A program made the position numbers and the translations under genes. Shown here in pieces: positions 33,425 to 35,837 of a stretch of 64,000 nt of DNA. A model generated the notes under the pieces. The model saw only the letters and a list, made by a program, of their open reading frames with translations, was not told where the DNA came from and made no database searches. This DNA is from Haloarcula vallismortis ATCC 29715 (lineage in GTDB: Archaea > Halobacteriota > Halobacteria > Halobacteriales > Haloarculaceae), in contig NZ_AOLQ01000069.1 of NCBI RefSeq assembly GCF_000337775.1, forward strand, positions 124,001 to 188,000. Reading direction: 5' to 3'. Positions within the stretch are counted from its first letter, which is position 1. Each line of letters begins with the position of its first letter.

Positions 33425-34681
33425 TTAGACGCCAGTCGAGTAGCGCAGCAGGCCGGCGACGCCGCCGAAAGCGGTCAGCAGCTGTTCGCCCTTCTCGAAG
33501 TCCGTCGAGATGAACACTGTCTCCGTGCCGCGCTGGTCGGCCAGTTCCATCAGGTGGTCGATGGCGTCTTCGCGCTCGCCCTCGTCGGCGTCGACGGTGG
33601 CCTCACAGCGGGAGCACTCGTGGTCCTCAGTGGTTGCATTGCTGTTGATGAGTTCGTACTCGTCGTGGCCGTTCTCGCAGGTATAGGCGACCACGTCTTT
33701 CCGGAGGTCCTCGGAGATGAGCAGCTGTTCGACCGCGCCCATGTTGAGGTTCTGGCGCGTCTGGTCGAAGCCGTAGGTGGCCTTGTCACCGTTGTGCAGC
33801 TGCTTGAAGAAGTCCTCCATGAGCTCCTTGTCCCGGAGCATCTCGTGTTCGGCCAGCACATCGTCGGCCGCGTCCACGAGGTCGTACAGGCCGGATTCGT
33901 CGGTGTAGGCCACGTCGAACTTCCCCAGCACCATGTCTTGCAGTTCGTGATGGAGGTAGTCCCCGTCGAGGAACTCGTCTTTCGTCGGTGAGGGGCCGCC
34001 GACGAGGATGCCGTCCAGTTCGTGGCGGTCGGCGACGAACAGGTCGTTGGCCATGCCGGCGACCTCCTGATAGAAGTTGTCGATGGCCTCTAGTCGGAGG
34101 CGGGCGAATCGCTGGGCTGACTGGCCACCTTTCCGCTGCTTGCCCGGCACCAGCGAGGAGGCGGATTTGACGGGTTCGACCCGCTTGCCTTTCAGCCACC
34201 CGACGTTGGCTTCTCGTCGGTCAAGCACAACGAGGCCGAACAGTCCCTTGTCGGCAAGCATGTGCTCTAGCGGTTCCGTCAGGAACTCCGAGTCACAGTG
34301 GTAGCGGAACGACTCGATGGGGTCCGGCGGGGATTCGAGGACTTTGGTCACCATGTCGGTTCGGCCGCCGCCGGTGTCGAACGCTCCCGAGAACAGTACC
34401 AGGCCGTTCTCCGGCGGGGTGTTGTCGTAGTATCGGAGGCGGTCCTTGATAGAGGTGAGCGCGTCCTGCACCGCTGTCCGGGTGTCCTTCGATTTAATGT
34501 TCGAGGCTTCGGAGTGCTCCTGGGTGACGTGGGCGACAACGCTGCTGATCTGCTTGTCCTCGGGCACGTAGATAGAGACGAGTTGGGTTCCCGAGCCCTG
34601 GTACCCCTTGAGTTCCTCTATGACCTTCCGGAACTCGTATTTCTGCTTGTCAGATTGCTCCTGTTCCTGCTGCTCGCTCAT
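33425..34681 (-). CDS. prf1: Peptide chain release factor aRF1
   Basis: Archaeal class I release factor of 418 residues. The stop-codon-recognition motif NIKS lies in SEASNIKSKDTRTAV, and the peptidyl-hydrolysis motif GGQ in KQRKGGQSAQRFARLR. The mini-domain carries cysteines (CENGHDE, ECSRCEA) likely to bind zinc. The ATG at 34681 gives the acidic Gln-rich start MSEQQEQEQSDK; the frame remains open upstream through the hairpin cluster, but that stretch is not protein-like. Confidence 0.96.
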   Translation of the reverse strand: MSEQQEQEQSDKQKYEFRKVIEELKGYQGSGTQLVSIYVPEDKQISSVVAHVTQEHSEASNIKSKDTRTAVQDALTSIKDRLRYYDNTPPENGLVLFSGAFDTGGGRTDMVTKVLESPPDPIESFRYHCDSEFLTEPLEHMLADKGLFGLVVLDRREANVGWLKGKRVEPVKSASSLVPGKQRKGGQSAQRFARLRLEAIDNFYQEVAGMANDLFVADRHELDGILVGGPSPTKDEFLDGDYLHHELQDMVLGKFDVAYTDESGLYDLVDAADDVLAEHEMLRDKELMEDFFKQLHNGDKATYGFDQTRQNLNMGAVEQLLISEDLRKDVVAYTCENGHDEYELINSNATTEDHECSRCEATVDADEGEREDAIDHLMELADQRGTETVFISTDFEKGEQLLTAFGGVAGLLRYSTGV

Positions 34682-34722
34682 TACTCTACCTTGGCCGAGG
34701 TGGCGTAAGAACCTGTTGACAG

Positions 34723-34944
34723 CGAGGGGCGCGAACGAAGTGAGCGGCCCTCGTGCCGGAGCGGCGACCATGAGGAGCCGCGGAGGAAGCCGGTGCGATT
34801 CGAGCGGAGCGAGAATCGCAGGACGAGTGAGCGGCGAATGAAATGAGCCGCGAGCAGCGAAACCCTGAGTGAAACGACGGGTTTCGGAATTGCGAGCGGG
34901 GAGGCACGACCCGTGAGCAGCGAGAGCCCGAGCGAAGCGAGGGC
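34723..34944. repeat. Cluster of mini-hairpins with a near-constant 11-base loop
   Basis: Five or six short stem-loops in 222 bases. Their stems are unrelated in sequence but self-complementary; their loops follow G-(ARYGR)-(ARYGA). Clear copies: TGCGATTC/GAATCGCA around GAGCGGAGCGA (34794-34820); GCGGC/GCCGC around GAATGAAATGA (34831-34851); CGAAACCC/GGGTTTCG around T-GAGTGAAACGA-C (34858-34886); GCCC/GGGC around GAGCGAAGCGA (34926-34944). An imperfect copy with loop GAACGAAGTGA lies in 34723-34753, and a short variant at 34897-34913. The cluster fills the divergent gap between prf1 and the MinD gene. Function unknown. Confidence 0.75.
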
Positions 34945-34978
34945 CTTGCATCGGAGCGGTTCGACAATTGACAGTCGG

Positions 34979-34986
34979 GTTTATAT
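34979..34986 (+). promoter_or_regulatory. TATA box of the MinD-type ATPase gene
   Basis: TTTATATG lies 33-40 bases before the ATG at 35019 and just after the hairpin cluster, giving a short leader. It also argues against the TTG at 34998 as the start. Confidence 0.6.
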
Positions 34987-35018
34987 GACTGCCTGCATTG
35001 TACCCAAGCAATCAGACT

Positions 35019-35837
35019 ATGGCGGGGTATGTGTGTACGATTGCGGGCGGCAAGGGCGGCGTCGGAAAGACGACGACCGCGGTAAATCTCGGGGCTGTGC
35101 TTCAGGAGATGGACTACGATGTCGCCGTCGTCGACGCGGATCTGGGGATGGCGAACCTCGGCTCGATGCTCTCCGTGGAGCCCGAAAAGAGTCTCCACGA
35201 GATCCTGGCTGGCGAGGCTGCCGTGAGTGAGGCCCTGACCGACGCACCGGGTGGGCTCACGGTGATTCCGGGCGAACAGTCGCTGGAGGCGTTCGCGGAC
35301 GCTGACCCCGCTAAGCTGCGGAAAGTCATCAAGACGCTTCGGAATGCCTACGACGTGGTGTTGATTGACACCGGGGCCGGACTGAGCCACGAAGTCGCCG
35401 TGCCGCTCGGACTGGCCGATGGAATCCTCCTCGTCACGACCCCCGACGACGTTGCGGTGGGCGATACGGTCAAGACAGCCCAGCTGGCGAACCGCATCGA
35501 CGGGACCGTTCTGGGCGCGATTATCAACCGTGCGACCCGCCACACAGACGTCGCATCTATCGCCGAACAGATGGAGTTCCCACTGCTTGCGGTCATCCCG
35601 GACGACCCGCAGGCGACAACCGAGGAACCGCTCGTGCTCAACGCCCCCGAGAGCACGGCTGCAGACGCCTATCAGCGGCTGACCGAGGCGCTTGAGGGTG
35701 TGTTCTTCCGTGGCGAGAGTCCCGAAGTGGATATCGAGACGATACTCGACGACGAGTGGTTCCTCGATGACACCGAAGACCACTCCGATGTCGACGACGA
35801 CGAGGATTCGGGCGGCGTGTTTGGCCTGTTTAACTGA
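35019..35837 (+). CDS. MinD/ParA-type ATPase
   Basis: Deviant-Walker ATPase of 272 residues. The start AGYVCTIAGGKGGVGKTTTAVN shows the KGGVGKTT signature; VVDADLGMANLGSML and LIDTGAGLSHEVAVPLGLADGILLVTTPDDVAVGD are further family motifs. The C-terminus is acidic with DDDEDSGGVFGLFN, lacking a clear amphipathic membrane-binding helix. Haloarchaea have several MinD paralogues; no MinC/E-like partner is nearby. Role in positioning of surface structures or division is possible. Confidence 0.9.
   Translation: MAGYVCTIAGGKGGVGKTTTAVNLGAVLQEMDYDVAVVDADLGMANLGSMLSVEPEKSLHEILAGEAAVSEALTDAPGGLTVIPGEQSLEAFADADPAKLRKVIKTLRNAYDVVLIDTGAGLSHEVAVPLGLADGILLVTTPDDVAVGDTVKTAQLANRIDGTVLGAIINRATRHTDVASIAEQMEFPLLAVIPDDPQATTEEPLVLNAPESTAADAYQRLTEALEGVFFRGESPEVDIETILDDEWFLDDTEDHSDVDDDEDSGGVFGLFN

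Follow-up and report, generated by a model that had tools for sequence, protein, structure and literature searches.

A tandem array of intergenic hairpins in Haloarcula vallismortis, conserved by fold rather than by sequence, that may act as recognised DNA

The REP/BIME elements, with their GTAG and CGTC families (PMC3733652), are short intergenic palindromes of many copies and fast turnover that are sometimes clustered, and they share these features and a similar size with the hairpins reported here, whose 29-nt class lies within the 20-40 bp set for an intergenic REP palindrome. REPs, however, keep the sequence of their stem, carry an unpaired GTAG or CGTC tag and occur mostly as inverted dimers, whereas the stems described below are free in sequence and covary (though some modules recur), have no common flank (GGCGT linkers being found only in arrays like those of G161, a genome of the same family) and stand head-to-tail, with neighbours 31-35 nt apart that lie on the same strand in 96 cases and on opposite strands in 17. 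GTAG-type REPs are also associated with RAYT (Y1_Tnp) proteins, which are unneeded here, 5 of 11 element-rich genomes having no match. In Haloquadratum and Natronomonas, the PATEs and the ends of IS605 type (PMC3119063) are, like the present elements, haloarchaeal, palindromic, non-coding, dispersed and presumably recognised as single-stranded DNA. By their description, with one palindrome near each end and a derivation from IS605, PATEs stand apart from the present elements, which are near-absent from the low-GC, TnpB-rich genome G082 and abundant in G159, where neither TnpA nor TnpB is matched.

What is recognised in an integron attC site is a folded single strand of DNA, whose stem may vary in sequence, and the likeness of such sites to the array is used here solely as an analogy for fold-based recognition. 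Unlike attC, the array shows no consensus boxes and no cassette arrangement, and inspection of 34723-34949 by eye found no pair of the boxes R'' (RYYYAAC) and R' (GTTRRRY) around its hairpins. DNA loops of the GNA or GNNA type closed by two G-C pairs form hyper-stable mini-hairpins, of which GCGAAGC melts at 78 °C, and the d(GCGNAGC) series of Hirao and Yoshizawa (PMC4686876) resembles the tip of the present elements, where a C-G pair, backed by a second pair, closes the GNA loop; GNNA variants were found here too. Those mini-hairpins are known as oligonucleotides or parts of aptamers, whereas in the present elements this tip caps a GA/GA step followed by a stem of about nine layers, and is repeated through genomes. 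In line with the initial annotation, which knew of no function for such strings, the literature searched contained no description of the motif in haloarchaea; subscription literature lay outside the search, and an earlier account is possible.

The window, that is the whole stretch of DNA analysed, comprises 64,000 nt of H. vallismortis ATCC 29715 (contig NZ_AOLQ01000069.1, positions 124,001 to 188,000). The divergent gap between prf1 and a MinD gene, already described as filled by a hairpin cluster, holds an array of seven head-to-tail hairpins on the + strand (34723-34949), as established from the sequence and DNA folding (Table 1). Their core centres succeed each other in steps of about 33, 36, 34, 31, 33 and 30 nt (overall range 30-36 nt), and a typical hairpin measures about 29 nt, two of the seven cores being degenerate or shorter. 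Five copies of GARYGRARYGA, all on the + strand, start at 34733, 34802, 34836, 34867 and 34930, and each is flanked by complementary arms (with a T.C mismatch beside the core at 34867), which bears out the earlier remark that the stems differ and yet pair with themselves. Two further hairpins of the same plan, recognised by reading outward, have the cores GACCATGAGGA at 34766 and GAGGCACGA at 34901; at the position of the former, relatives carry GACCGACGGGA and similar cores. Folded as single-stranded DNA, the + strand returns seven consecutive hairpins (z -3.3, against z -1.4 for the - strand), while its RNA fold reaches z -5.1. A probable TATA box a short way beyond the array, at 34977-34989, would act in the promoter of the MinD gene. 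The best relatives of prf1, at 89-98% identity, belong mostly to Haloarcula/Halomicroarcula, with H. mannanilytica at the top, and in Blast comparisons of the array region with plasmids mainly ParA/Mrp-type genes were matched.

Table 1. Hairpins of the array and flanking features in the window (arms and cores given as 5' arm / core / 3' arm).
Feature	Coordinates	Strand	Description	Evidence
H1	34723..34753	+	CGAGGGGCGC / GAACGAAGTGA / GCGGCCCTCG; 10 layers, one G.G mismatch; core GA-AC-GAA-GT-GA	sequence, inverted repeat, DNA fold
H2	34756..34786	+	CC-GGA-GCGGC / GACCATGAGGA / GCCGC-GGA-GG; core degenerate, one inner pair C.A	sequence, DNA fold of inner part
H3	34794..34820	+	TGCGATTC / GAGCGGAGCGA / GAATCGCA; perfect 8-bp stem	inverted repeat, motif match, relatives, DNA fold
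H4	34827..34855	+	GT-GA-GCGGC / GAATGAAATGA / GCCGC-GA-GC; second GA/GA step outside 5-bp stem	sequence, motif match, DNA fold
H5	34858..34886	+	CGAAACCCT / GAGTGAAACGA / CGGGTTTCG; 8 Watson-Crick pairs, T.C beside core	sequence, inverted repeat, motif match, DNA fold
H6	34891..34919	+	TGC-GA-GCGGG / GAGGCACGA / CCCGT-GA-GCA; short core GA-G-GCA-C-GA	sequence, DNA fold
H7	34920..34949	+	GCGAGAGCCC / GAGCGAAGCGA / GGGCCTTGC; one bulged base in 5' arm	sequence, motif match, DNA fold
prf1 (archaeal peptide chain release factor aRF1)	33425..34681	-	left neighbour, outside element	
MinD/ParA-type P-loop ATPase gene	35019..35837	+	right neighbour, outside element	
Probable TATA box of MinD gene	34977..34989	+	TTTATATGAC; just outside array	sequence, kept by gene start in relatives

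The 11-base strings at the centre of the hairpins had been taken for a conserved loop of two pentamers. The shared strings are confirmed, but an unpaired loop and a pentamer repeat are ruled out: R3 pairs with Y9 and Y4 with R8, so that the pentamers are the two strands of a mini-hairpin. The core follows the plan X-GA-NN-GNA-N'N'-GA-X', in which two successive G.A mismatches lead to two Watson-Crick pairs capped by a GNA triloop; in GAGCGAAGCGA, for example, positions 1-11 and 2-10 form the G.A and A.G mismatches, 3-9 and 4-8 are Watson-Crick pairs, and the triloop is GAA. All five window strings fit this pairing, and DNA and RNA folding return the structure for cores with G-C pairs, while the energy model leaves the all-A-T core of H4 open. 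The pattern CGARCGNAGYGAG admits paired cores as readily as mispaired ones, and the window's genome has 42 paired against 7 mispaired cores of this type (hand count of the places listed); in G031, only 3 mispaired cores were seen among the places listed. Judged by its sequence, the core is of the same class as d(GCGAAGC), the hyper-stable DNA mini-hairpin. Sheared pairs make a tandem GA step stable when it follows a pyrimidine and precedes a purine, and both features fit among 114 intergenic hairpins, with an outer closing pair C-G or T-A in 96 and an inner pair beginning with a purine in most. Loops are GNA in 88 of 125 intergenic GA/GA hairpins with two inner pairs and a loop of three, mostly as C(GNA)G. 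The second inner pair is A-T in many elements (H1, H4 and H5 are such A-T-containing core variants), so the strict rule of two G-C pairs is followed by a part of them.

Hairpins with a 2x2 mismatch (inner lengths 1-6, loops 3-6) were sought in an unbiased scan of intergenic DNA (310 kb) and coding DNA (1.7 Mb). Intergenic hairpins of inner length 2 and loop 3 alone stood out clearly; GA/GA made up 48 of these 184, with GNA loops in 33 of the 48, and every other mismatch class reached at most 4, apart from TC/TC, which marks the same sites on the opposite strand. A second excess, at inner length 1 and loop 5, came from the same sites, and in coding DNA GA/GA accounted for 13 of 881 hairpins. 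GA/GA is the sole tandem mismatch clearly enriched in haloarchaeal intergenic hairpins, and essentially in this geometry. Counts of inverted repeats show maxima at spacers of 3 and 11, and 525 kb of intergenic DNA contain 262 with arms of at least 6 and an 11-nt spacer, where dinucleotide shuffles give 142. Paired cores number 203-210 in the same 525 kb and 27-29 in 2.7 Mb of coding DNA, a split that follows our own approximate gene calls, with most elements coming from G161.

When cores were picked by their inner sequence alone, outer pairing was 0.82, 0.82, 0.60, 0.64 and 0.77 at successive distances and was down to background at position 10; sliding by one base gave about 0.3-0.4, and a mispaired core gave 0.33 at the first two positions; the outer arms pair only where the inner core pairs. 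Stem lengths peak at 9 layers (8-10) and come practically to an end at 11, both in one genome and, independently, at loci from many genera, and 36 of 178 unique elements have exactly 9 layers where 1.3 would be expected with arms re-dealt. A further GA/GA step lying 2 or 5 bp out, or a G.G lying 2-3 bp out, is present in about 38% of the elements. A single G.G two or three pairs outside the GA step, as at 34723-34753, occurs in 30 of 203 elements and may be kept rather than a product of decay. A GC-rich Kitasatospora plasmid gave no signal (1 paired and 12 mispaired cores). Chance and base composition are ruled out as the source of the hairpins by the GA/GA enrichment, the excess at the 11-nt spacer and the peak at nine layers.

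The arrays of G161 are built with constant linkers, GGCGT and GGCTC, which occur also in Halorientalis persicus (L063) and at locus L041, and this allowed units from three genera to be chosen by linker instead of by pairing, units without any such core being omitted. In the two hairpin types so collected, 96.9 and 88.9% of cells are paired, and covariation amounts to 0.572 and 0.430, against 0.158 and 0.180 after shuffling and at most 0.083 after sliding, respectively. The inner pair varies as well, between A-T and G-C. Paired changes between related sequences, as earlier surmised, are therefore present, and the covariation of stems is upheld, while the supposed constancy of the loop is not, since core pairs covary too. 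Some array units are half-and-half hybrids with broken pairing. On contig C1 of G161, 57-bp tandem arrays lie at about 379.4-380.3, 420.5-420.8, 426.8-427.1 and 491.3-491.6 kb (L149-L155); in these, as in L063 and L041, two hairpin types alternate between constant linkers, with freely varying stems.

That strings of this kind are common between haloarchaeal genes, as the initial annotation stated, agrees with their intergenic concentration and with the presence of CGAGCGNAGCGAG in 144 of 146 Halobacteria genomes. A genome holds roughly 30 copies on average and at most 132, whereas a control gives roughly 6 (averages judged by eye); the control is a mispaired pattern, the motif being so nearly a mirror repeat that the reversed pattern is not clean. 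A broader pattern is found 28-95 times in Halobacteria and 0-9 times, the background level, elsewhere in the phylum. Two low-GC haloarchaea, G152 and G082 (GC 0.48), are nearly devoid of elements and show no signal in samples. G152 carries the same family label as the element-rich G159.

Modules of the window array recur at unrelated loci across the genus, while in the prf1-MinD gap itself hairpins differ in number and kind from species to species, some having almost none, and the gap is much shorter in the congeners L021 and L027. When sister species are compared, single hairpins have appeared, vanished or decayed, and their conservation is poor. In two Haloarcula gaps (L005, L006) the 8-bp arms of H3 are unchanged but enclose its 11-nt core in inverted orientation, which points to an inversion or a template switch at this very short inverted repeat. 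In another (L011, genome G018) about 1 kb of extra, coding-like DNA lies beside the hairpin array. The same-facing arrangement of hairpins within a gap (96:17) is what tandem amplification would give. Replication-strand bias was considered and rejected, as neighbouring gaps show no strand coherence (p 0.30). Between co-directional genes, elements run with transcription in 30 cases and against it in 25, and their density in G161 is similar in divergent, convergent and tandem gaps; in the smaller sample from G011, 8 of 12 elements lie in convergent gaps.

We favour, with a probability of roughly 55%, the reading that the tandem array belongs to a family of intergenic palindromes which resembles REPs, is conserved by fold and not by sequence, and acts as recognised DNA. 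Each unit has an outer stem of about 8-10 layers, different in sequence from unit to unit, a GA/GA step expected to form sheared G.A pairs, and a tip of two inner Watson-Crick pairs, usually closed by C-G, with a GNA triloop. In the single-stranded or supercoiled state the GA-rich strand would adopt the hairpin, whose stable GNA/GA tip, carried by a stem of set length, would be recognised by a putative DNA-binding or DNA-processing protein. Selection on the fold would keep the pairing, copies would multiply and be replaced in the manner of REP modules, and recombination among units and linkers that resemble each other would lengthen or shorten the arrays. A preferred length of stem, the GA/GA and G.G steps retained inside it and the linkers common to different genera argue for recognition and selection. 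Against this reading count the poor conservation of individual hairpins between sister species, as for selfish or neutral elements, the hybrid units with broken pairing, the strong folding as RNA and the lean to convergent gaps in G011.

Inverted cores, hybrid units and arm changes of several bases show rearrangement at the DNA level and leave room for a copying mechanism that rebuilds inverted ends, as the initial annotation had suggested, in the form of fold-back copying, by which a 3' end folded into a GA-capped mini-hairpin would prime synthesis and copy the opposite arm; arms would then be complementary through synthesis and the core constant as primer, and the hairpins could be a mutational by-product in need of no function. 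Such an origin would suit loops and cores that obey the rules of DNA stability, units with the same linkers whose stems differ at several positions at once, the hybrids, the cores inverted inside constant arms in L005 and L006, and the turnover between species. Free copying, however, would give a broad distribution of stem lengths, not a peak at 8-10 layers followed by a stop, and it should erase the further GA/GA and G.G steps within the copied stem; linkers common to several genera also speak against it, and we regard this origin as unlikely, though deserving serious attention.

A role as RNA, either as small intergenic RNAs or as UTR hairpins bound by an RNA-binding protein, seems somewhat less likely still. 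The + strand of the array folds strongly as RNA (z -5.1), G.T/G.U intermediates occur between orthologous stems, and independent small RNAs would need no set orientation to neighbouring genes. On the other side, the window array lies between two divergent likely promoters, the orientation ratio is 30:25 with no limitation to 3' or 5' flanks in G161, and Rfam yields no significant match for the window region (weak chance hits only) or for L149, L152 and L155. The loops weigh in the same direction: GNA and GNYA, of the DNA type, are enriched in intergenic hairpins, whereas neither GNRA of the RNA type nor UUCG is. The preference for DNA-type loops is wider than the family of GA-step hairpins. 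In perfect intergenic hairpins without a GA step, GNA triloops (with their complement) make up 42%, compared with 16% in coding DNA, and GNYA is preferred too, but GNRA is not (3.9 vs 4.8%). Balanced orientation, indifference to the type of gap in G161, the location between promoters and DNA-type loops together favour a DNA-level role, and the element probably acts as single-stranded or cruciform DNA.

Much less credible is the view that the elements are moved by TnpA, as remnants or passengers of transposons of the IS200/IS605 type (REP/RAYT or haloarchaeal PATEs), even though TnpA works by recognising hairpins in single-stranded DNA and PATEs with near-terminal palindromes have been described in Haloquadratum (PMC3119063). 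Y1_Tnp matches are absent from G055, G070, G073, G100 and G159, five of the eleven element-rich genomes; G159, with neither a TnpA nor a TnpB match, has 84 copies of one variant, whereas G082 combines 26 TnpB matches with 3 copies; and the elements have no tag or stem sequence in common. Dependence on IS605, REP or PATE systems was rejected on the element-rich genomes without Y1_Tnp, G159 being also without TnpB. That the array is a terminator, or a control element working in both directions, that serves prf1 and the MinD gene in particular deserves hardly any credence, for although the array fills the gap between both likely promoters, this gap is far shorter in L021 and L027, array content varies widely by species, the same modules stand at unrelated loci, and no intrinsic terminator (hairpin plus T run) is predicted in 34600-35100, while intergenic termination sites of Haloferax are marked by T stretches (PMC7237163).

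By analogy, and more tentatively than for the array itself, the hairpins may represent class-wide haloarchaeal DNA sites whose recognition depends not on sequence but on the shape into which a single strand folds (a GNA loop and a GA step on a stem of about nine layers), and which would be bound or processed by a putative conserved haloarchaeal protein, in the manner of attC but without its known machinery. A large and old intergenic family in a well-studied archaeal class has apparently gone undescribed, perhaps since its fold and not its sequence is conserved. If the preferred DNA-level reading is true, the family would show the GNA/tandem-GA DNA mini-hairpin put to use in nature on the scale of whole genomes, and it could be tested whether folds of single-stranded DNA serve as functional sites in organisms living at molar salt. 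Even as a by-product of copying, the elements would provide a natural record of hairpin-templated DNA synthesis.
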